A DNA stretch of 64,000 bases from Paraburkholderia sp. (GTDB taxonomy: Bacteria; Pseudomonadota; Gammaproteobacteria; Burkholderiales; Burkholderiaceae): positions 1 to 64,000 of the forward strand of contig SCRN01000041.1 of assembly GCA_004322045.1 (NCBI GenBank). Reading direction: 5' to 3'. How positions within the stretch are numbered: position 1 is the first letter of the stretch; the number at the start of each line of letters is the position of its first letter. A program made the translations under genes and the position numbers. The notes under the pieces were generated by a model. That model did no database searches, had not been told where the DNA came from, and was given only the letters and a program-made list of their open reading frames with translations. Of this stretch, positions 6,280 through 28,383 are shown piece by piece.

Positions 6280-6488
6280 TGATTCGCATTGTTGCGTTAT
6301 AGCTCCAGTTCCAAGCGCCTAGGATAGCGCCGCGATTATCGACTCACATGCGGCTGCCTCGCACTGCTAACCCACGGTTTAGTCGCGTACGAAGCAGCAC
6401 GCGGGCTCGGCCTGCGCGTGAGCGAAATCGGAACATTATGCAAACGGAAGGTTGCTGAATACCCCAATTCTCGAGGAGAAAACTTCGC

Positions 6489-8681
6489 ATGCCGATGCAA
6501 AGGTTGTCCAGTCTGCCGACACTGACTATTCCCGAGATTCAGCTTCCTTTCTCCGGTCCCTCGCCACGTTCCGACAGCGATCAGTTGCGAGCGCACGCTC
6601 TCGCTTGGGCGCAACGATACGGCTTGATCAGCCGCCGCGGTGCGCATCGACTGAGCACTACTCCACTGCTGGGGCTGGGGGTAGCGTTGTGCGGAGATGC
6701 TCCCACACACCGGGCCGAGATTCTGGTGTGTTGGTACCTGTGGGCGCTCACGCTAGATGACCGTATCGATGACGGGCCATGGGCGGAAAACGGGGCGTTG
6801 GACCGCTTCATCACAGCCGCGCAAGCAGTGGTCGAGACGGACAGTGCTCGTTCGCGGGGCGAAGCCGGCCAACTCGATGATCCGATGCTCGTTGCCTTGA
6901 CCGATGACCTGTGGCCGCGGACCAAATACTGGGGTAACGAAAGCTGGCGGCATCGACTAGTCCAGCACTTTGTCGGACATCTGCGTGCGCAGGCGACGCT
7001 GGTGCGAATGCGGGAAACTGATACGGTGCCCACATTGGCCGAGTATCTGCCGTTGCGCCGAGATTCGTTCGGTGCGCTATTTTTCTTCGACCTCATCGAT
7101 GCAGCCGAAGCTCTCGACCCGCACCACCATTCACCGGATATCAAATGGTGGAACACGCTGCGCGAACACGGCGCCGATATCATTGCTTGGACGAACGACA
7201 TTCATTCGATTGCTAAAGATCTGGTGTGCGGTGAGCGCTTTAATCTCGTGTCGATACTTGCAGACACGGGCGAGCTCGATTGGCCCACGGCGATTAAATC
7301 GGCCCATCAGATGGTGAATACGGCAGTCGCGGAATTCACTGCGACCTCCTTTCGATATGGGAAGCACCGGCCGAACGCCGCGACTGCCCCGAACCGGCTG
7401 CACCAAGTCATTCGGGCATCGGGCGACTGGCATCGGACCGTTTCCCGCTATCACCTGCATACCGCTGATTCCACGAGGCGGGCTAATCAGCAAGTGGACT
7501 TGAAACTCACCCCGCCGACGCTGAAATCCCCGCAGTTCGAAATCGACCCCTACCCCTTGTACAAGCATTTGAGGACAACCTTGCCGATCGTCTACGACGA
7601 GCCCACCGATGTATGGCTCGTCAGTCGATATGTGGATGTCAAAGCCGCATTGACCCATCGCGGAGCGAGCAACAACAACTACGCTTGGCAGATCGGGCCG
7701 CTGCTGGGGCACACCATTGTCGCCATGGACGGCTGCGAACACGCGCAGCACCGAGCCTTGCTCAACCCGTCGTTCCGCAGCAACGCACTCGCGGTGCTCG
7801 AAGCCTCCATCACCTCCGTGACCACCGACCTGCTGGCGCGCATGCGTGGTCGCCCCCAAGTGGATCTCATTACCGATTTCACCGCCTTGCTGCCGGCGCG
7901 GGTCATGGCTCGCGCGTTGGGTCTCCCGGCAGAAACACCCGAGGAGGTGACGCGCCTTAAGAACTGGTGTGCTGTCGGCCTCGCTTACATGGGCAATTAC
8001 CGACAGGACCCGGCACTGTTAACTGGCGGATTGTCCATCCGAGACAAATTCTACGAATTCATCCAGCCGCACATCGACGCCCGCCGTGCCGAGCCCGCAG
8101 ACGATTTGATATCGCAGCTCCTGGCGGCGCAGATTGACGGCCAACCTTTGGCCGAAACCTACGTCCGGGCTTACTGCGCGATTCTGATGACCGCAGGCGG
8201 CGAGACCAGTCATGGCGCGCTAGCGAACCTCATTGTCAACCTGTTGAGCGAACCCGGCGTCAAAGACGCTGTGATGGCTAATCCAGACTTGATGGACAAC
8301 GCACTCACCGAAACCCTGCGCCGCAATCCTCCCCAGCAACTCGTGCTCCGGGAAGCCCGTGAAACGCTGGAACTACCGTCGGGAGCGGTTCCTTCTGGGG
8401 CAACCCTGGCCTGTCTGATTGGTTCAGCCAACCGTGATCCAGACCGATTCACCGACCCAGACGCCTTCGACATTTCGCGTAACGACCGGGACGCAAGTCA
8501 TTTCGCCTTCGGCGCGGGGCCTCACTTCTGTCTAGGATCCCTGCTGGCGCGGATGGAGATCACGATCAGTGCCCGCATGCTGCTGCAGACGTTTCCGAAT
8601 GTGCGCTGGGCTCCGAGCTTCCAGCCCACCGAACGCGGATTCATCAACCGCTGCCCCGATCGACTGGATGTATTGCTGTGA
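6489..8681 (+). CDS. Terpene synthase-cytochrome P450 fusion
   Basis: One uninterrupted 730-residue frame encodes two complete enzymes. Residues 1-335 form a class I terpene synthase: the metal motif DDRIDD at 90-95, pyrophosphate-sensor R191, NDIHSIAKD at 236-244 (NSE triad N236, S240; the final acidic residue is Asp, K243 kept) and the terminal RY pair at 320-321. Residues about 345-730 form a bacterial P450: I-helix AGGET at 569-573, ExxR at 608-611, DPDRF at 650-654, and heme loop [10 protein letters not shown] at 674-683 with Cys681 as thiolate ligand. The linker is about 15 residues. The start has GAGGAG about 11 bases upstream. The likely role is cyclisation of a prenyl diphosphate, probably farnesyl, followed by oxidation of the hydrocarbon. 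No ferredoxin, reductase or prenyltransferase gene is adjacent, so redox partners must come from elsewhere. Confidence 0.93.
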
Positions 8682-8786
8682 CACCCACTGTGGCGTCATC
8701 TATCCGCCTCAGGTCGCGCTTGTTGGATTCGGTCGTATTACAGAGCGGCCGTGGGCCGAAGACGGCGGACCCATGCCACCTTCCCA

Positions 8787-10859
8787 TCAACGGCAGCAAA
8801 GCATCGCCAGCGCACGTGCATCCAAGGTATAACGCGGCACATTGCCTGTCACAGGTAGCGCCGCGGTGCGGGAAATGTCATCGGGACCGGGTAGGCCGGT
8901 ATCGAATACGAGGCGCCACCCTTGGGGTGGCTCTTCTGGTGGAAAGAATTCAACTGCCGTCTCGCCAGCGTTGAACAGCATACATAGCATCGGCTCCAAG
9001 GGGCGCACTCCGCCGCCGGCTTTGCCATCATCGAAAGTCCTATCGCTCGGCCCCCTCACGAGACATCCTAGTGCGTGCGTGGAGCCATCCCAGTCGGGCG
9101 CGCCGCCTCCGGGTGCGAACCAGCGAACTTCGTCCGGTGAATTAAACACGTCAGCGCTCAGCGCCGAGTAACGTTTGCGGCATTTAATCATTTCTTTCAC
9201 AAAACGAACGATTTGAATATGCCGTTCGACGAATCGCCAGTCGTACCACGAGACCTCATTGTCCTGACAATAAGGGTTGTTGTTGCCATGCTGCGTACGA
9301 CGAAACTCATCGCCGCCAAGCAACATCGGCACCCCGCGCGAAAGCAGGACCGTAGCCAGCAAGTTCTTGATCTGGCGAATCCGTACCCGCTCGATTTCCG
9401 GATCGGCACTCTCCCCCTCGACACCGTAGTTCGCGCTGAAATTCTCCTGCGTGCCGTCCCGATCTCCTTCGCCGTTGGCGAGATTGCGCTTGCCTGCGTA
9501 GCTGACGACATCGCTGAGCGTCAATCCGTCGTGGCAGGTCACGAAGTTAATACTGTTGATCGGTGCCTTACCGCTTCTCTCATAAAGATCGGCACTGCCG
9601 CCCAGGCGCTCGGCGAACGGCTGCGCCATGCCGGCGTCCCCACGCCAGAAGCGCCGCACATCGTCCCTGAACCGGCCATTCCATTCGGCCCAACGCGCCC
9701 CTGCGAACCCACCCACCTGATAGGCGCCGCCGGCATCCCAAGCCTCCGCGATCAGCTTAACGCCCTGCAGCACCGGATCTTGTGCAATACGCTCAAGCAG
9801 TGGAGCATTAGCCGTGAGCTTGCCGTGCTCATCGCGTCCAAGGATCGATGCCAAATCGAAACGGAATCCGTCGACCTGCATATCCGTTGCCCAGTAACGC
9901 AGGCAATCGATAATGTAGTCACGCACGATCGGATGGTTACAGTTCAGCGTATTGCCGCATCCAGAATAATCGGCATAGCTGCGCAAATCGTCGCCGTGCA
10001 AGTAATAGATGCCGTCGTCGAGGCCGCGAAAACCGAAAGTTGGGCCATGCTCGCCGCCTTCTGCCGTATGGTTGAAGACCATATCGAGAATGACCTCGAC
10101 ACCATTGCGATGCAACTCGCGCACCATTGTCTTGAACTCGCGAACCTCGCCACCGCTGTCGCGCTGGGCGGCATAACCCGGGTGCGGCGCGAATAGTGCG
10201 ATCGGGTCGTAGCCCCAATAGTTGTATAGCGGCCGCCCGGTCGTCGGATCTCGCCCCATCGCGCGCAGATCGTCGAATGCCTGGACGGGCATCAGCTCGA
10301 TTGCCGTAACACCAAGCCCGACTAAGTACGGCAGTTTCTCCGCCACGCCCAAGAAGGTACCGGGATGCGCCACACCGGACGAATGATCGATCGTCAATCC
10401 GCGCACGTGCGTTTCGTAGACGATCGTCTCCGACCATGGCCGCTGGGGGCGTACCGTGCCCTGCCAGTCGAAGTTCCGGTCAACTAACAGCGAGCGATAC
10501 CGATGCACGTCCGGGCTCGCGCGCGGATCGATGCGGACCGCGAGTGCGTGAGGATCGAGCAATTCGATGTCGCCGTTGAAGCGTAGCCCCTGTTTTGGCG
10601 CCCACGACCCGAATGCTCGATATGCATATGCCTGGCCCCAGCCGAGGCCACCGACCATGGCATGCCAAACATCGCCCGTCCGATGCTCGGGTGTCCCAAG
10701 GTCGACTACCGCGATTGGGGATTCGCTCGACGCCTTCTCGTAAAGTAGGAGTTCGACTCGTTCGGCATGACGACTGAATAGGGCGAAGTTCAAGCCATCA
10801 CGGCACTCCTGTACGCCAAGCGGCGCAGGCCGCCCAACCCCAACGTACAATCCTGTCAT
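8787..10859 (-). CDS. glgX: Glycogen debranching enzyme GlgX
   Basis: This 690-residue GH13 (isoamylase/GlgX) enzyme hydrolyses alpha-1,6 branches of phosphorylase-trimmed glycogen in the cytoplasm. A CBM48 domain lies at about 12-100, the barrel from about 140. Catalytic residues are visible: nucleophile D335 in GFRFDLAS, acid/base E372 in IAEAWD, and the third Asp in [17 protein letters not shown] (213-219) is the GlgX signature. Its ATG overlaps the stop of the CBS-domain gene (ATGA), so it is the last gene of glgA-CBS-glgX and translationally coupled. Length is normal for the family. Confidence 0.95.
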
Positions 10860-11452
10860 GAGTCGATGCGATCACTGATCACGTCATAGCCGTCCGCGAG
10901 CGCATCCCAGCGATCGATCTGTCGCATCTGCTCGAATTCACGCATCGCAGTGCGAATCGCTTCGTCACGCGGCCCTCGCGCGACTCGGACCCGCATCAGT
11001 TCACTTCGGTGCGTTCGCCCGAAATGATCGACTACCTCCTTGTAAAAGACGACTTCGAACGGTAGAGGCTTCGACTCGCAACCGGCGACATCGCTCGCGC
11101 CGATATCGTTCGCCGAGACGACGCCGACGACGCACGCGTCACGATCGACCACCACCAGTCGCCTGACGTGGGCCTGCCGCATCAAGCAAGCGGCCTGCTC
11201 CACCGTGTCGTCTGGTGCACAACTGAGTGCCTCCGCGCTCATCGCTTCACGTACGGTCATTTCGTACGGCGCGCGGTCCTGCGCTACCGCTCGTATAACG
11301 ATATCGCGATCGGTCAGCATGCCGATCGCCCTCGCGCCCCGACAAACCGGCAGGCAACTGACATTCTCGTCCCTGAGCTTACGTGCCGCGGTCGCGACGC
11401 TCTCCTGCGGATCGATGCAAACGGCCCGGCGCATGACGTCCTTGACTAGCAT
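10856..11452 (-). CDS. Tandem CBS-domain protein in the glycogen operon
   Basis: This 198-residue cytoplasmic protein has two CBS domains: residues 5-58 (MLVKDVM, ending GMLTDRDIVIRAV) and 67-122 (VREAMS, ending GVVSANDIG). A C-terminal segment of about 70 residues (FEVVFYKEVVDHFG, then MREFEQM) is unassigned. CBS pairs usually sense adenine nucleotides, so an energy-charge input to glycogen metabolism is a reasonable inference. The ATG at 11452 overlaps the end of glgA (ATGCTAG) and the stop overlaps the glgX start, so all three are co-translated. A frame 45 codons longer lies wholly within glgA and was rejected. Confidence 0.88.
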   Translation of the reverse strand: MLVKDVMRRAVCIDPQESVATAARKLRDENVSCLPVCRGARAIGMLTDRDIVIRAVAQDRAPYEMTVREAMSAEALSCAPDDTVEQAACLMRQAHVRRLVVVDRDACVVGVVSANDIGASDVAGCESKPLPFEVVFYKEVVDHFGRTHRSELMRVRVARGPRDEAIRTAMREFEQMRQIDRWDALADGYDVISDRIDS

Positions 11453-13044
11453 GGCTTGCCTCTTCGATGGCCGTCGCCGGTAGCGCCAACGTCGCGCGCG
11501 AGCGCCGCATACAACGCAACGTATCGTTCGGCGGGTCGCCGCCAGCGAAAGTCCTGGCTCATGGCACGCATCTGCATGGCTCTCCAATCATCGCGCTGCC
11601 GGTACGCCCCGCACGCTTGCCCAAGTGCACCGGCCAACGCACGGCCCGTCGCTTGCTGGAAGTGAAAACCGGTTGCACAGCGCGCATTCGCTTGACCTGG
11701 ATTGCCGATCACGGTATCTGCCAAGCCGCCGACCGCGCGCACCACCGGAATCGTGCCGAAACGCATTGCATACATCTGAGTTAAACCACACGGTTCGAAT
11801 CGAGCCGGCGCGGCCAGAATGTCCGCACCGGCGAGCACGCGACGCGCAAGCGGTTCTTCGTAACCGACGCGCACCGCCACGCGCTGAGGATGGCTCGCCG
11901 CAAGCGCACGAACCTGCGCTTCGATGGCCGCTCCGCCTGTACCACAGATGGCGAATTGCGCACCTTCGTCGACGAGCATCGGCACGATGTCGGGCAGGAC
12001 GTCCGCCATCTTCTGTTCCGTTAGGCGGCTGACGAATGCCACCAGCGGTGCACTTTCCTTAGGCGCCAGACCTAACTCGTTTTGCAGGGAGGCCTTGCAG
12101 CGCGCTTTACCGGATAGATCGGCAACGTTGTACGGATGAGGCACCACCAGGCTGTCTTCCGGCGTCCATCGTTCGTAGTCCACGCCGTTCAAAATTCCTG
12201 TTAGGTCGTGTTCGCGCGTCCGCAACAACCCGTCGAGCCCGCAACCGAATTCGGGCGTCAAGATCTCTCGCGCGTAGCGCGGGCTTACAGTCGTTATATG
12301 ATCGGCAAAGCGAATTCCGGCCTTGAGAAACGATACGGATCCATAGTATTCGATACCATCGGAGGTAAACCACTCGTTTGGCAGACCTAATCGTCCGAAC
12401 GTTTCGGCGGCGAACACGCCTTGGAAAGCCAGATTGTGAATCGTGAAAACCGAACGAGGGCGCGTTCGAGGCCCAGTTGCCAGCAGCGCGGGAACCAGGC
12501 CCAGGTGCCAGTCGTTCACATGCACGACGTCGGGCGTCCAGTCAACACCTGCGGTGCCCAAAGCGATGCGGGCTACGACATGCGAGAACACAGCAAACCG
12601 CTCCGCGTTGTCCGCCCACGCCTGTCCTTGCTCGTCGAAATAAAGTCCGCCGCCCCGGTCGAATCGTGCGGGGCAATCGACAAGCCATAACGGCAGATCG
12701 ATGTCCGGCATCCGCGCCGGAACGAGCCACGTCTGACCGAAGCCCTGGACATCACCGAGCCCGATCGGCTCTTCCTTTCCATGCACGCGCTCGAGTGCCT
12801 CGGGGTAGCCGGGGACGACGATACGCACGTCCACGCCGAGCTCGGCAAGCGCTCGCGGCAAAGCCGCGCTGACATCAGCAAGCCCGCCGGTCTTGGCGAG
12901 CGGCACGGCTTCGGATGACGCGAACAGCACGCGCAACGGCCACGCCGCGGCGGCCATCTGTTCGAGATCATCGCGCACAGCGGCGGGAAAGGCTCGTTCG
13001 AATTCGTCGGCGCGTTCGACGGCATGACCGGAACAATGAAGCAT
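11446..13044 (-). CDS. glgA: Glycogen synthase GlgA
   Basis: This 532-residue GT5 enzyme extends alpha-1,4-glucan chains from ADP-glucose. The donor-binding motif KTGGLADV lies at 51-58, the HVNDWHLGLVPALL region follows near residue 175, and the C-terminal lobe carries PARFEPCGLTQMYAMRFGTIPVVR. It has an N-terminal extension of about 35 residues compared with E. coli GlgA. The ATG at 13044 was kept because GGAG lies six bases upstream. First gene of the operon with the CBS protein and GlgX. An FNR-type box at 13154-13167 lies 110 bases upstream. Confidence 0.94.
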   Translation of the reverse strand: MLHCSGHAVERADEFERAFPAAVRDDLEQMAAAAWPLRVLFASSEAVPLAKTGGLADVSAALPRALAELGVDVRIVVPGYPEALERVHGKEEPIGLGDVQGFGQTWLVPARMPDIDLPLWLVDCPARFDRGGGLYFDEQGQAWADNAERFAVFSHVVARIALGTAGVDWTPDVVHVNDWHLGLVPALLATGPRTRPRSVFTIHNLAFQGVFAAETFGRLGLPNEWFTSDGIEYYGSVSFLKAGIRFADHITTVSPRYAREILTPEFGCGLDGLLRTREHDLTGILNGVDYERWTPEDSLVVPHPYNVADLSGKARCKASLQNELGLAPKESAPLVAFVSRLTEQKMADVLPDIVPMLVDEGAQFAICGTGGAAIEAQVRALAASHPQRVAVRVGYEEPLARRVLAGADILAAPARFEPCGLTQMYAMRFGTIPVVRAVGGLADTVIGNPGQANARCATGFHFQQATGRALAGALGQACGAYRQRDDWRAMQMRAMSQDFRWRRPAERYVALYAALARDVGATGDGHRRGKPC

Positions 13045-13153
13045 CTAACGCTCCGCAAATGGCATCGGCATTGGCCTGCCGCACGCGCCGCGCCTCAGCG
13101 CCGCGCAATCAGCCAATCGAATATCCACTTTGCGCGGCTCGATGCACGATGCT

Positions 13154-13167
13154 TTGATCTCGGTCAA
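13154..13167. promoter_or_regulatory. FNR/ANR-type box upstream of glgA
   Basis: TTGAT-CTCG-GTCAA matches nine of ten consensus bases. It lies between the divergent glgA operon and the gene at 13406; distance favours glgA, but no good -10 was found at the canonical spacing for either. Confidence 0.6.
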
Positions 13168-13405
13168 TCAATCGGTGCGTGGGTCCCATCATGCGCAGAT
13201 CATCTGCCATTGCCCCGGAAGGAGGCCGTTGATGTGCATCAAGAGTGCGCTAGAGATCAGGCGTAAGTTCTCTTCAAAGAGCATAGCCAGCTTCACTTTG
13301 GCTATCACGCGAACACCGGCGTGTTGAGCGCCGATTATGCGCCCTTCCATCAGTAAGATCATTTCGGCGTTTTCAGCCGGCCAGAGTCCGACTGCGGAGA
13401 CACCC

Positions 13406-13765
13406 ATGCGCATCACTGTTCACCTCGACGATTCCGACTGCGCATCGCCGTGCCCTTACGCAGTCATCTGGCTCGACGGGAGTGCCCGCCAATGGTCGCG
13501 CGAAGGATACGTCGGGCTTGACCTGCCCGAATCCGGCGCGTTACAGGTGGAAGCTGACCGAACGTTTATCTGCGGCCCCCATGACTTGTTGCCATGGTGT
13601 GTACTCGAAGGGCTGAGACTTGATGATCCGGTTCGGACACATGTAGGTACCGCAGGACGCGCGCACTGGTGCGGCAGTCCCAATTTGGAGCCGCGATCCG
13701 GGCATTGGACGGTCACGCGCGTCGAAAGAAGTGAACGGCAGCCGCGTGCTTTGCGAGTGGGTTAA
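13406..13765 (+). CDS. Hypothetical protein in the glycogen region
   Basis: This 119-residue frame starts MRITVHLDDSDC and has a clear GGAG seven bases before the ATG. It includes YAVIWLDGSARQW and VEADRTFICGPHDLLPWC, with five cysteines overall and no membrane segment. I do not recognise the family. It lies between glgA and glgP, convergent with glgP, and the FNR-type box at 13154 is about 240 bases upstream. A frame extending 23 codons upstream lacks a ribosome site. Confidence 0.5.
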   Translation: MRITVHLDDSDCASPCPYAVIWLDGSARQWSREGYVGLDLPESGALQVEADRTFICGPHDLLPWCVLEGLRLDDPVRTHVGTAGRAHWCGSPNLEPRSGHWTVTRVERSERQPRALRVG

Positions 13766-13834
13766 CGCCAAAGCTGCCTCCGTTTAGAGACTGGGCCATC
13801 CTCGATTCGACTAGCCTGCACGTACCTCAAGCCA

Positions 13835-15568
13835 TCAACGCAGATATGCCTCGCTGGCATACCTGCGCATCATGCGCTGGCTGTTGAAGTAGCTGGCGAT
13901 ATTGGCGATTGTCTGCTTCATCATCAAGCACCAACGCCCCGGTTCGTCAAAATAGAGCGGCAAGACGACATCGTCGAGCTTCGAATAAAGACACGCCGCA
14001 TGATCCTGTTCCTGCGCCTCGCCCGTGCCGATCGCCCAACCGGTCACACCTTCGACGCACGCCTCCACCCACCATCCGTCGAGCACGCTCATGTTGAGGA
14101 CGCCGTTGAACGCAGCTTTCATGCCGCTCGTTCCTGATGCTTCGAGCGGAGGCAACGGCGTATTGACCCACACGTCCGAACCCGCTGTAAGCGCCATCGC
14201 AAGCCGGATATCGTAATCGGGCACGAAAACGCACGTGACCTCCTTGCGCAATGCACGAATGAGCCTATGAATCTCCTCGATCGCTCGCTTGCCTTCCGTA
14301 TCTCGAGGGTGCGCCTTTCCTGCGAGTACAACCTGGAACGGGCGTCGCTCGGCGATGCTGGTCAGTCTGGCCAAGTCTTCGAAAAGGAGCAACGGGCGCT
14401 TGTAACCCGTCATGCGGCGAGCAAATCCCAACAGAGGAACGCTCGGGTCGAGTTCGGTGCCGGTGCGATCTTTGACGATTTCCAGTAAGTCGCGTTTGGC
14501 ACCGAGATGGCATTGGGCCACCTCTTCGTCCGAGAACTGAAGCGCTCGCGTGAGCACCTCGGGCTCATGCTGCCATTGCGGGAAACGAGACGAATAGAGT
14601 TGCGCAAACGCCGAATGAGTCCACGTTCCCGGATGTACGCCGTTCGTGATCGCATGGATTCGATAGCCGGGGAACAGATGCGCCGTCGTCTGGGCATGTC
14701 GCCGCGCCACACCGTTGACATAGCCCGCGAGGTTCAGCGCGAGCCTCGTCATATTGAGCGCCGCTTGCCCCGCCAAATGCATCAACTCGTCTCGCTCGAT
14801 GAATCCAGGCAGACATCGCTCGAAAAGCGCGTACGAAAACTGGTCATGGCCGGCCTCGACAGGCGTATGCGTCGTAAAGACACACTGTGCCCTTACCGCC
14901 GCGGCATCGTAGCGCGCTTCCCGTTCGAGCCGATCCGACGCGGCGGCTCGAGTTCGAACGAGCAATTCGAGCGCAAGCAGCGCCGCATGCCCCTCGTTCA
15001 GGTGATAGGTGTGCAACGAAAAGCCAAGCGCACGCAGGATCCGTATTCCACCGATTCCGAGCACGATTTCCTGTTTGAGGCGATAGTTCTCATCGCCGCC
15101 ATAAAGGTAGTGGGTCAGCATGCGGTCGGCCTCGTCGTTTTGATCAAGATCCGTGTCGAGCAGCAGTACCGGCACTTGATGTCCTTGCGGCGACGCGTGC
15201 ACATAGAGCCACGGTCGGATCCAAACCGGCCTTTGTTCGACCTTGACCGCCACCATTGCATCAAGCGGCGTACACCATCGAGCGGGATCCCACCAATCAG
15301 GCTGCTCTGTCTGGCGACCATTGGGGTCGATGCCTTGACGGAAATATCCGGCTCGGCTCGCAAGCGTGACGAAGACGACTGGAAGCTCCAGGTCCGAGCT
15401 GGATCGGACGGTATCTCCCGCAAGCACGCCAAGTCCGCCCGCATACGTCGGTATTTCTGGGCGAAGCGCGATCTCCATCGAGAAATACGCGATGTGCGTG
15501 CGCGAAAGAAACGGCGTAACAGACGCTGTCGTCCTGTCCACGCCCGACTGTTGACTCACGGTGTTCAT
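13835..15568 (-). CDS. glgP: Alpha-glucan (glycogen) phosphorylase, short GlgP type
   Basis: This 577-residue enzyme releases glucose-1-phosphate from alpha-1,4-glucans using pyridoxal phosphate. It belongs to the short phosphorylase type, not the roughly 800-residue GlgP/MalP type. Diagnostic pieces: AYFSMEIAL and YAGGLGVLAGD at the N-terminus, YHLNEGHAA, HTPVEAGHDQF, and ASGTSGMKAAFNG carrying the PLP lysine near residue 485. The neighbouring glgA and glgX complete a storage and mobilisation set. No strong ribosome site was seen at the ATG. An FNR-type box (15622-15635) sits 54 bases upstream. Confidence 0.93.
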   Translation of the reverse strand: MNTVSQQSGVDRTTASVTPFLSRTHIAYFSMEIALRPEIPTYAGGLGVLAGDTVRSSSDLELPVVFVTLASRAGYFRQGIDPNGRQTEQPDWWDPARWCTPLDAMVAVKVEQRPVWIRPWLYVHASPQGHQVPVLLLDTDLDQNDEADRMLTHYLYGGDENYRLKQEIVLGIGGIRILRALGFSLHTYHLNEGHAALLALELLVRTRAAASDRLEREARYDAAAVRAQCVFTTHTPVEAGHDQFSYALFERCLPGFIERDELMHLAGQAALNMTRLALNLAGYVNGVARRHAQTTAHLFPGYRIHAITNGVHPGTWTHSAFAQLYSSRFPQWQHEPEVLTRALQFSDEEVAQCHLGAKRDLLEIVKDRTGTELDPSVPLLGFARRMTGYKRPLLLFEDLARLTSIAERRPFQVVLAGKAHPRDTEGKRAIEEIHRLIRALRKEVTCVFVPDYDIRLAMALTAGSDVWVNTPLPPLEASGTSGMKAAFNGVLNMSVLDGWWVEACVEGVTGWAIGTGEAQEQDHAACLYSKLDDVVLPLYFDEPGRWCLMMKQTIANIASYFNSQRMMRRYASEAYLR

Positions 15569-24949: not shown

Positions 24950-25312
24950 CTATTCGCAAATCGCGATGATCTGATTCAACTGCTCGCATGCAGCCGCGAA
25001 CACCTCGTCGGGCGCGCGCTTCCAAGGATGCGCTTTCGCGCCCCGCGCGCGCCAGTCGAACGACTTCGGCTGATGGCCGAGCACATAGCTTGCGACGTTT
25101 CTCGGCCCTTTGAACTTGATGGCAAACGGGTTGGTGTCGTTAAACTCGGCGGTCGTCATCGGGAGTCCGATGACAATGCCTGTCCGCTCGTTGAACACCT
25201 TGGGCGACAAGACCAGCATGGGATTCACATCTTTCATCTCGCGGCCCACGCGGGGGTTACAGTCGATCCAAATGATGTCGCGACGATCGGGCGCCCACAA
25301 AGCTCCCGCCAT
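24950..25312 (-). CDS. mazF: MazF/PemK-family toxin (endoribonuclease)
   Basis: This 120-residue protein starts with RRDIIWIDCNPRVGREMKD and has MLVLSPKVFNERTGIVIGLPMT, the core beta strands of MazF/PemK ribonucleases. The usual G-x-E-x-x-x-x-RP-x-hydrophobic pattern is modified to GREMKDVNPMLVLSP. It ends with HPWKRAPDEVFAAACEQLNQII. Its ATG overlaps the antitoxin stop by one base (TGATG), so the two are coupled. It should cleave RNA and be held inactive by the partner. A complete, intact pair. Confidence 0.85.
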   Translation of the reverse strand: MAGALWAPDRRDIIWIDCNPRVGREMKDVNPMLVLSPKVFNERTGIVIGLPMTTAEFNDTNPFAIKFKGPRNVASYVLGHQPKSFDWRARGAKAHPWKRAPDEVFAAACEQLNQIIAICE

Positions 25313-25566
25313 CAGAACACCTCCGCACCGATGCGGCCCGCGGCCATCGCATCGCCCCCGTGCTTCACAGGGTCGAATTTCGCCAGCTTTTCCTCGAGCG
25401 TCAGCTTGCGCGGACCCACCGGACGCACCGTCACGCCAATCTCATCCGCCGAAACCTCGACCTCCTGATCCACCTCGAAATGCGCCGACCGCGCGACTGC
25501 CGCCGGAATGCGGACAGCCAGGCTGTTCCCCCATTTCTGGATCGTGAGCGTTGCTGTTTTTGCCAT
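25312..25566 (-). CDS. mazE: MazE-family antitoxin (AbrB type)
   Basis: This 84-residue protein starts TLTIQKWGNSLAVRIP, the SpoVT/AbrB swapped-hairpin DNA-binding fold (about residues 5-48). A polar tail (EEKLAKFDPVKHGG) should wrap the toxin. The ATG at 25566 has AAGGAGG about eight bases upstream; a 14-codon extension was rejected. Autorepression by the pair is expected for this family, but I did not find an obvious operator. Confidence 0.87.
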   Translation of the reverse strand: MAKTATLTIQKWGNSLAVRIPAAVARSAHFEVDQEVEVSADEIGVTVRPVGPRKLTLEEKLAKFDPVKHGGDAMAAGRIGAEVF

Positions 25567-25736
25567 GATGCAAACCTCCTTGTAACGTATAAACGAGTCT
25601 ATACACAATTCTTGTTTGTATCAACACGTCTAAACATGACCGGTAGGGGCGTCGCGACCATGGCGGACGTCTGCCGCCTCGCGTCCGCACTCATGGCCCG
25701 AGGCCGCACCCCAACCCTACCGACAAATGACAGGCC

Positions 25737-26606: not shown

Positions 26607-28271
26607 CTAGGCTCCGGCAGCCTGCTCGCGCATACGGCGGGCTTCGTCGAGCAGGAACTGCTGGTAATCGTCGAGATCGCCGTCGAAGAGCTCGACGCCG
26701 CCCTTGGTGACGAGCCAGAACTCGTCGCATACAGCGCGCAACAGAGCCCGATCGTGACTGACGAGCATCACCGTGCCCTCGAATTCGTTGAGCGCCATGG
26801 CCAGCGCTTCGCGAGTGGCCAAATCCAGGTGGTTGGTAGGCTCGTCGAGCAGCAGCAGGTTCGGGCGCTGCCACACGATCATGCACAACACGAGCCGCGC
26901 CTTTTCGCCGCCGCTCATCGTGCCGACCGCCTGATGGACCGTGTCGCCACTGAAGTTGAAGGTACCGAGGAAGGTGCGAAGCGATTGTTCGGTGCCGCTC
27001 TGGCCGGGGGCGCGCATCTGTGCCGGCGTGTCCTTGGCCAAGCGGATCATGTGTTCCATCGGCGTGTCGAGAGGACGCAGCACGTCGAGTTCCTGCTGCG
27101 CGAAGTAGCCGATGTTCAGGCCCTTGCCTTCGCTGATTTCGCCGGCAATCGGCTTCAGTGCGTGCGCCACCGTCTTCACCAGCGTGGACTTGCCTTGGCC
27201 GTTTGCCCCGAGGATGCCGATGCGCTGCCCGGCCAGCACAGATCGGTTGACGCTCCGGACGATGACCGTGGGTGGCGTGCCCGGCAGCGCGCCGGCCGGT
27301 GCCGGGTAGCCGAAGCTCGTGTCCAGCATCGATAACAGGGGGCTCGGGACGTTGAGCGGCTCCTTGAACTCGAACGTGAACTCTGCGTCGGCAAGCACGG
27401 GGGCGATCTTTTCCATGCGTTCGAGCGCCTTGACCCGGCTCTGCGCCTGCTTCGCCTTCGAGGCCTTGGCCTTGAAACGGTCGATGAATTTTTGCAGGTG
27501 GGCGATCTTGTCCATCTGCTTGGCCATCGCGGCCTGCTGCAACACGAGTTGCTCGGCGCGCATATCTTCGAACTTGCTGTAGTTGCCGCCATAACGCACG
27601 AGTTTGGCGTTGTCGACATGCACCGTCACCTGCGTCACCGCGTCGAGAAACTCGCGGTCGTGGCTAATCACTACCAACGTTCCTTGATAGCGCTTGAGCC
27701 ACGCTTCCAGCCAGACGAGTGCGTCGAGATCTAAGTGATTGGTCGGCTCATCGAGCAACAGCAAGTCGGACGGACACATGAGCGCGCGCGCCAGTTGCAG
27801 CCGCATGCGCCAGCCCCCGGAGAAACTGTTGACCGGGTGGCTAAGCTGCACGGCACTGAAGCCAAGGCCCAGGATCAGTGCTTGGGCACGTGCGGGGGCA
27901 TCGTGCGCGCCGGCGTCGTGCAGGGCCATGTAGGCGTGGGCCATGCGCATGCCATCGTCGCTGGCCTCGGCGGCGGCTACTTCAACCTGCGCGGCGAGCA
28001 GTACGGTATCGCCATCGATGACGAAGTCGGTCGCACTCTGCTCGGTCTCAGGCATATCCTGCGCGACCTGCCCCATCTTCCACCCAGCGGGAATCGAGAA
28101 CTCGCCGCTGTCTTCGTGCAGCGTGCCGTTGAGAAGACCGAAGAAGGATGACTTGCCGGCGCCATTGCGGCCGACCAGACCGATCTTTTCGCCGGGGGTG
28201 AAGGTGACAGACGCGCGATCGAGTACGACATTGACGCCGCGGCGCAGCGTGACATTACGGACGGAAATCAT
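26607..28271 (-). CDS. ABC-F family ATPase (YheS-like)
   Basis: This 554-residue cytoplasmic protein has two ABC ATPase domains and no membrane segments, the ABC-F plan; members act on ribosomes as translation factors or resistance proteins. Domain 1 has Walker A GRNGAGKSS (34-42), SFSGGWRMRLQLARAL and LLLLDEPTNHLDL; domain 2 has GANGQGKST, TMSGGEKARLVL and a second LLLLDEPTNHLDL. The interdomain linker (FKAKASKAKQAQSRVKALER) resembles YheS/Uup. The C-terminus ends soon after domain 2, shorter than E. coli YheS by about 80 residues, lacking the coiled-coil tail. Confidence 0.92.
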   Translation of the reverse strand: MISVRNVTLRRGVNVVLDRASVTFTPGEKIGLVGRNGAGKSSFFGLLNGTLHEDSGEFSIPAGWKMGQVAQDMPETEQSATDFVIDGDTVLLAAQVEVAAAEASDDGMRMAHAYMALHDAGAHDAPARAQALILGLGFSAVQLSHPVNSFSGGWRMRLQLARALMCPSDLLLLDEPTNHLDLDALVWLEAWLKRYQGTLVVISHDREFLDAVTQVTVHVDNAKLVRYGGNYSKFEDMRAEQLVLQQAAMAKQMDKIAHLQKFIDRFKAKASKAKQAQSRVKALERMEKIAPVLADAEFTFEFKEPLNVPSPLLSMLDTSFGYPAPAGALPGTPPTVIVRSVNRSVLAGQRIGILGANGQGKSTLVKTVAHALKPIAGEISEGKGLNIGYFAQQELDVLRPLDTPMEHMIRLAKDTPAQMRAPGQSGTEQSLRTFLGTFNFSGDTVHQAVGTMSGGEKARLVLCMIVWQRPNLLLLDEPTNHLDLATREALAMALNEFEGTVMLVSHDRALLRAVCDEFWLVTKGGVELFDGDLDDYQQFLLDEARRMREQAAGA

Positions 28272-28383
28272 GGGGAGCTACTATCGGGGAGGACAGGCAT
28301 GATAGCCGAGCGACGTGCGCGGCTATCTTTTTCCCCGCGTTACCGTGCTGCGTGCTCGGCACTCAGTTCCTGCTGGCGCCGGG

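Follow-up and report, generated by a model that had tools for sequence, protein, structure and literature searches.

The nearest described counterpart of the gene reported here comes from Pseudomonas strain Ps706 and is called 'Unknown terpene 2', which is listed with a fused terpene synthase (TPS)/cytochrome P450, a methyltransferase, and an isopentenyl-diphosphate (IPP) isomerase under 'Terpenes' in eLife 2021;10:e71900 (PMC8719888), where it occupies a one-line entry without sequence comparison, product, or distribution. The first-pass annotation of the DNA analysed here had known of no well-described natural protein with this order of enzymes, yet the architecture is already on record in that entry. 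Likened by described gene content, the 'Unknown terpene 2' gene set is present in all 17 intact Pseudomonas loci examined here, whereas our Burkholderiaceae locus has the fusion alone, and the fusion family also extends to Burkholderiaceae, Enterobacterales, and Actinomycetota. The albaflavenone P450 CYP170A1 carries a moonlighting terpene synthase site in one polypeptide (PMC10992849), but that site lies within the P450 fold, whereas the fusion has a separate Terpene_syn_C_2 domain (residues 82 to 281) with the TPS placed first. Other natural bacterial terpene cyclase fusions are EutB, in which a cyclase is joined to a truncated HMBPP reductase (PMC11574762), and the HAD-TC-beta drimenol synthase (PMC12365925), and fungi code for chimeric prenyltransferase-TPS enzymes such as TvTS and MpMS (PMC10563020). 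EutB and HAD-TC-beta have a truncated reductase or a phosphatase-like domain where the fusion has a P450, and the partner in the fungal chimeras acts upstream of the TPS, as a prenyltransferase, whereas the P450 would act downstream, by oxidation. HAD-TC-beta also has a different cyclase fold. A characterised bacterial TPS-P450 fusion was not found in the open-access literature searched, with subscription papers mostly outside this scope; the terpene literature examined included parts of PMC10881772, and the terms fused, fusion, and P450 occur 0 times in PMC7192455 and PMC4690342.

The window, a stretch of 64,000 nucleotides from Paraburkholderia sp. (contig SCRN01000041.1), codes for a TPS-P450 fusion of 730 residues in a single open frame on the forward strand (6489..8681). 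As read from the sequence, the frame runs from an ATG at 6489 to a stop codon ending at 8681 with no internal stops, the nearest upstream in-frame stop lies 10 codons 5' of the ATG, and a Shine-Dalgarno-like GAGGAG is located 10 nt 5' of it (6473..6478, forward strand). A chance reading frame is excluded: among 500 sequences of 4380 nt simulated from a first-order Markov model of the gene, the longest stop-free run per sequence had a median of 192 and a maximum of 493 codons, versus the 730 observed. The best-matching Pfam stretches are Terpene_syn_C_2 (residues 82 to 281, E 2.9e-29) and p450 (residues 520 to 702, E 2.5e-29), both far above their gathering cut-offs, whereas all 18 NCBIfam matches, among them various P450 and sesquiterpene synthase models, fall below theirs, so the product cannot be named from them. 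The coordinates, strand, length, and both Pfam domains agree with the first-pass annotation, which had proposed one frame with a complete TPS followed by a P450, and the homologue search that it had suggested recovered 25 other full-length loci with both domains in the same order. The window ORF is a genuine natural two-enzyme fusion with the order TPS-P450, and an assembly or sequencing artefact joining two genes can be discounted almost entirely, since the same join occurs at 25 other loci in separate genomes or records. An AlphaFold model of the fusion (pLDDT 72.4, pTM 0.52) represents the P450 half poorly and is too weak for judging how the domains dock.

Full length was verified at 26 loci, comprising the window, 17 Pseudomonas (six of them from a sample of that genus), Proteus, Pantoea, and six Actinomycetota (Actinomadura xylanilytica and five others), so that the first-pass annotation was right in seeing a real fusion, which is not isolated but belongs to a conserved family across two phyla. 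A scan of GTDB species genomes, with 80 loci kept of 113 relatives, gave 15 best loci (14 Pseudomonas and one Proteus myxofaciens) in which both halves are matched at 65 to 81% identity. In 12 of them the fusion is one unbroken frame, and the other three are broken: L034 and L035, in Pseudomonas cedrina subsp. fulgida and Pseudomonas sp. W4I3, are split inside the P450, and L038, in Pseudomonas orientalis, is without the middle part and has a truncated methyltransferase. These three were left out of the alignment of 26 fusions, which holds found, intact loci only. Some match to the fusion query is present in 1298 of 72,556 plasmid records, but a single plasmid among them, Pantoea sp. At-9b pPAT9B01, carries the fusion as one piece (74.8% identity), and in two further records with at least 80% query coverage the TPS and the P450 are unfused genes that lie next to each other. 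The pPAT9B01 fusion is annotated merely as 'cytochrome P450'.

The fusion is rare, being matched in 12 of 398 sampled Pseudomonas genomes (11 intact and one broken; E<=1e-60) and in one of 396 genomes sampled from the phylum of A. xylanilytica. That phylum sample had three matching genomes in all (E<=1e-20), A. xylanilytica and two with unfused TPSs of only 26 to 27% identity, and an unfused TPS with close similarity to the TPS half was not found among its 396 genomes. The TPS half matched six of 250 genomes in the family of A. xylanilytica, all six matches sitting in frames of 758 to 817 aa, and one of 295 from the order that includes Proteus (E<=1e-25 in both), and within the window's own family the one match among 398 genomes (E<=1e-60) is its own genome. 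In another sample, of 61 genomes with the window's genome as one of them, 31 had some match, mostly to P450s, and the window's genome was alone in matching both halves at one place. The fusion is absent from all 10 same-genus genomes sampled; one of these (G010) has an adjoining but separate TPS and P450 on opposite strands (L020, C6:45939-48248), each with 29% identity.

The TPS half (residues 13 to 325; 6525..7463, forward strand) is a class I domain matching Pfam PF19086 at 102.7 bits (cut-off, 23.7) and NCBIfam models of isoafricanol, 4-epi-cubebol, and delta-cadinene synthases, each below its own cut-off, and its best relatives by phmmer in the PDB are 9m25 ('terpene synthase'), 9hqd, and 7zrn, which include a T-muurolol synthase and a 10-epi-cubebol synthase. 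Foldseek gave P450s only among the matches listed (50 of 1834), and the assignment of the TPS fold therefore rests on sequence. Catalytic residues of both halves are invariant across the 26 fusions, down to 41 to 51% identity per half, with the exception of the I-helix acid in Pantoea. In the TPS these are the metal-binding motif DDRIDD at residues 90 to 95 (D90 D91 xx D94 D95; 6756..6773), Arg190-Arg191 (7056..7061), and the RY pair Arg320-Tyr321 (7446..7451), all on the forward strand and conserved in 26 of 26. The Arg190-Arg191 position, which we take to be that of the pyrophosphate-sensor arginine, is also RR in four of five stand-alone TPSs and R-P in the fifth. The NSE-type motif NDxxSxxKD (N236, S240, K243, D244; 7194..7220, forward strand) departs from the NDxxSxxxE pattern in that N236 and S240, like K243, are kept but the third residue is Asp244 in all 26 fusions, versus Glu in all five aligned stand-alone TPSs and in four PDB alignments inspected (three enzymes); the first-pass annotation had remarked on Asp as the last acid of the triad, and this holds throughout the aligned fusions. 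Aspartate is in general able to bind a metal ion as well.

The P450 half (residues 342 to 730; 7512..8678, forward strand) is recognised by Pfam (PF00067), by phmmer against the PDB (4rm4, CYP109B1; E 2.5e-53 over residues 346 to 717), and by Foldseek, with P450BioI, CYP134A1, and CYP109 among the matches listed. Its I-helix motif AGGETS (residues 569 to 574; 8193..8210, forward strand) has invariant A569, G570, and T573 and has E572 in 25 of 26 fusions, so that the acid-alcohol pair E572/T573 is present in the window. The ExxR motif (Glu608-Arg611; 8310..8321, forward strand) is invariant in all 26, as is the thiolate Cys681 of the haem loop (FxxGxxxCxG; F674..C681..G683; 8508..8537, forward strand), within which position 678 is occupied by Pro in the window and by Lys in Proteus, the remaining 24 fusions having Arg. 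Every motif named in the first-pass annotation (DDRIDD, R191, N236/S240/K243, RY, AGGET, ExxR, and Cys681) was found. The Pantoea pPAT9B01 fusion (L104:11935-14148) reads AGSVTS in the I-helix, with Val in place of the usual acid, so that P450 function may be impaired or changed there.

Compared with the 19 other gammaproteobacterial fusions, the window protein has 62.0 to 75.7% identity in the TPS and 69.4 to 85.5% in the P450, and compared with the six Actinomycetota these values are 41.4 to 48.1% and 50.0 to 51.3%; in every one of the 25 comparisons with the window protein, identity is higher in the P450 half than in the TPS half. Pairwise dN/dS between the window and five of the 17 Pseudomonas plus Pantoea is 0.12 to 0.26 for the TPS and 0.12 to 0.14 for the P450; it is 0.35 to 0.44 against two of the six Actinomycetota (dS 1.1 to 1.6), and dS is saturated against Proteus. 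Both halves of the window fusion are under purifying selection. It is quite unlikely that one half is catalytically dead, with the P450 serving as a scaffold or activator in the manner of P450-derived glycosyltransferase activators, or with Asp244 inactivating the TPS: NCBIfam TIGR04515, the model of those activators, is among the matches to the P450 half but scores 133 bits against a cut-off of 343, Asp244 is unusual but itself invariant, and the lack of the I-helix acid in Pantoea stands against a thiolate Cys and an ExxR that all 26 fusions keep and a P450 that is closer to the window than the TPS in every comparison, with dN/dS of 0.12 to 0.14 against the five Pseudomonas and Pantoea. The fusion family is real and conserved, and probably functional.

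Between the halves lies a short linker (about residues 322 to 341; 7452..7511, forward strand) that varies in both length and sequence, and this variability would suit cleavage of the polypeptide, or an internal start giving a separate P450, with the fusion serving co-expression only. Such an outcome is very unlikely, given that the linker frame is open in 26 of 26 aligned fusions from two phyla. These fusions were picked as intact, but none of the three broken genes is split at the linker alone, the breaks in L034 and L035 falling inside the P450 and L038 missing its middle. A stop or frameshift between residues 325 and 345, which by the first-pass annotation would refute its reading, is present in none of the 26 aligned fusions.

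Midpoint-rooted FastTree phylogenies place the fusions in one clade for each half. In the P450 tree (109 leaves, of which the 83 that are not fusions are P450s from the fetched loci), the 26 fusions form a clade with support of 0.999, whose sister group, under a parent node with support of 0.959, consists of unfused Streptomyces, Rhodococcus, and Herbidospora P450s. In the TPS tree (31 leaves, with five outgroups only) the fusion clade has support of 1.0, and two subclades within it have lower support (0.79 and 0.81). The stand-alone actinobacterial P450s (Herbidospora L039-L041; Streptomyces and Rhodococcus L105-L107) are 37 to 42% identical to the window P450 half, and their ∼17-kb stretches contain no TPS (TPS half, E<=1e-8); the Herbidospora P450s, at 42% identity, are among the nearest unfused relatives. 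From these trees we infer that the two halves were joined once, perhaps in Actinomycetota, and that the gene then spread by horizontal transfer. Unfused plasmid-borne TPS and P450 pairs were rejected as the direct source of the fusion, as they are merely 24 to 25% identical to it. One of these records (H4) has the pair in the order opposite to that of the fusion, whereas a Streptomyces sp. NBC_01304 plasmid (L108) codes for a TPS-like ORF (annotated 'lyase') and then a P450 in the fusion's order with a 1-base overlap, although these are two genes and are 24% identical to the window protein.

The gammaproteobacterial relatives share a compact gene order. At all 19 intact loci other than the window (17 Pseudomonas, Pantoea, and Proteus), the start codon (ATG or GTG) of a class I SAM methyltransferase gene overlaps the fusion stop by 4 bases (ATGA or GTGA), and at all 17 intact Pseudomonas loci the next gene codes for a type I IPP isomerase, identified as an NCBIfam equivalog in Pseudomonas sp. 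GM74 (L024; 173.3 bits, cut-off 127) and by tblastn at 79 to 89% identity at the other Pseudomonas loci. Among the broken loci, L034 and L035 also have the isomerase, and L038 has remnants of both partner genes. There is no isomerase within the 26-kb Pantoea stretch, the end of the Proteus contig is too near for its presence to be judged, and the six Actinomycetota stretches (14 to 17 kb) contain neither methyltransferase nor isomerase. The operon methyltransferase falls in generic families of the Methyltransf_11 type, and its nearest relatives in the PDB are phosphoethanolamine methyltransferases. Streptomyces plasmids carry relatives with 30 to 39% identity among the matches listed (12 of 29 records); of three records inspected for context, one has a P450 at ∼3 kb and a TPS at ∼5 kb from the gene, another has a P450 at ∼5 kb, and the third is unannotated, and these contexts are not decisive.

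This operon recalls sodABCD of Serratia plymuthica, in which isomerase, DXS, C-methyltransferase, and cyclase are encoded together (PMC6366047), and the two share an IPP isomerase, a SAM methyltransferase, and a TPS in one small cluster, although the sodorifen cluster as described there has the TPS as its own gene, SodC before SodD, and an extra DXS gene. The likeness gives rise to what we regard as the main rival to the reading developed below, that methylation comes first, as for sodorifen or chlororaphen: the methyltransferase would C-methylate farnesyl diphosphate (FPP), and the fusion would cyclise and oxidise the resulting C16 non-canonical diphosphate. A sod-like cluster has been reported in Pseudomonas grimontii, a species that also has the fusion (Duell et al., PMC6366047), and beyond its fusion a P. 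grimontii strain has a second locus with two TPS-like ORFs and an isomerase-like fragment. This order of steps is nonetheless unlikely, if deserving of attention, as the methyltransferase gene is placed after the fusion, all six actinobacterial stretches and the window are without such a methyltransferase yet have the same TPS motifs, and a phmmer search of the PDB with the Pantoea methyltransferase turned up no prenyl-diphosphate methyltransferase by name at E-values up to 10, some chains being named just 'methyltransferase'. The second P. grimontii locus, in strain DSM 17515 (L150:6702-9611), consists of two ORFs side by side, both interpreted as unfused TPSs, together with a short isomerase-like ORF, and its 17-kb stretch has no match to the operon methyltransferase; it may be related to the sod-like cluster of that species.

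The window copy has neither a methyltransferase nor an isomerase match beside the fusion. DNA similarity to Pseudomonas sp. GM74 (82%) spans 6522-8690 and ends ∼9 bases beyond the fusion stop, and the interval 8678..8690 (forward strand) is a putative vestige of the lost methyltransferase start, so that only the GTGA overlap and a few methyltransferase codons seem to be left. Elsewhere in its own genome the operon methyltransferase finds weak generic matches only, the best with E 2.2e-4 and 34% identity over 100 residues. The window copy may be a remnant without partners, even though both its reading frame and its motifs have been preserved. Its neighbours, read by eye, are small ORFs upstream and a glgX-like ORF downstream (8787-10859, reverse strand), in keeping with the first-pass annotation, which had seen no prenyltransferase or redox partner adjacent to the gene. 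The latter opens a run of glgX-, glgA-, and phosphorylase-like ORFs (8787-15568, also read by eye). The glgX-like protein is at best 61% and otherwise 43 to 48% identical to its matches in all 10 same-genus genomes, which suggests that this side is an accessory region, and because this flanking ORF is itself variable within the genus, insertion of the fusion is not datable by empty-site comparison. Plasmid DNA matches to 10000-34000 of the window comprise 41 records, the best from Cupriavidus, Caballeronia, Paraburkholderia, and Burkholderia, in line with a Burkholderiaceae host, with others from Acinetobacter, Salmonella, and Escherichia. An ABC-ATPase region (∼26607-28333) has 87 to 92% DNA identity to Caballeronia, Cupriavidus, and Paraburkholderia plasmids, and a MazF/MazE-like toxin-antitoxin region (∼24950-25605) is 91.5% identical to a plasmid of Burkholderia vietnamiensis G4.

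The reading that we favour, and consider probable with good confidence, is that of a bifunctional TPS-P450 that cyclises a prenyl diphosphate and oxidises the product, and that reached its host, where it stands without its operon partners, by horizontal transfer. The N-terminal class I TPS would ionise and cyclise a prenyl diphosphate, most likely FPP, to a sesquiterpene, FPP being suggested by the sesquiterpene synthases among the nearest TPS models and structures, and the C-terminal P450 would oxidise that sesquiterpene. Its electrons would come from a host ferredoxin and reductase, as expected because the P450 is of a bacterial class and has no fused reductase. In Pseudomonas, where the fusion heads the operon, the isomerase would raise precursor supply, and the overlapping methyltransferase would most likely methylate the oxidised product; it is placed last on two grounds: seven of the 26 loci retain the fusion with no such gene next to it, and within the operon it comes after the fusion. 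The window gene would have arrived in its Burkholderiaceae host by horizontal transfer and, because the partner genes are absent there, probably yields an oxidised, unmethylated compound. As a hypothesis, put forward in the first-pass annotation, channelling of the hydrocarbon from the TPS to the attached P450 is plausible. More tentative, with a little less than an even chance of holding in all its parts, is the fuller proposal of a first natural cyclase-oxygenase polypeptide with two complete domains, of single origin and spread over two phyla, with an N/S/D metal site, a hydrocarbon passed on to the P450, and an oxidised, methylated sesquiterpenoid made in Gammaproteobacteria.

In the TPS-P450 fusion two known enzyme families are combined into a new domain architecture, to which the literature searched devotes one line in one paper. 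Surveys of terpene synthases may miss it, as at least one public record, that of Pantoea, names the P450 alone. Natural fusions reveal the pathway steps that evolution found worth joining, and if this reading is true, a cyclase with its own oxygenase attached would be a natural test of proximity or channelling for a volatile, poorly soluble intermediate. Terpenoid engineering makes such cyclase-oxygenase fusions artificially, and the natural one would be a starting point for that work, while the conserved Pseudomonas operon offers a concrete target in the search for a new terpenoid.
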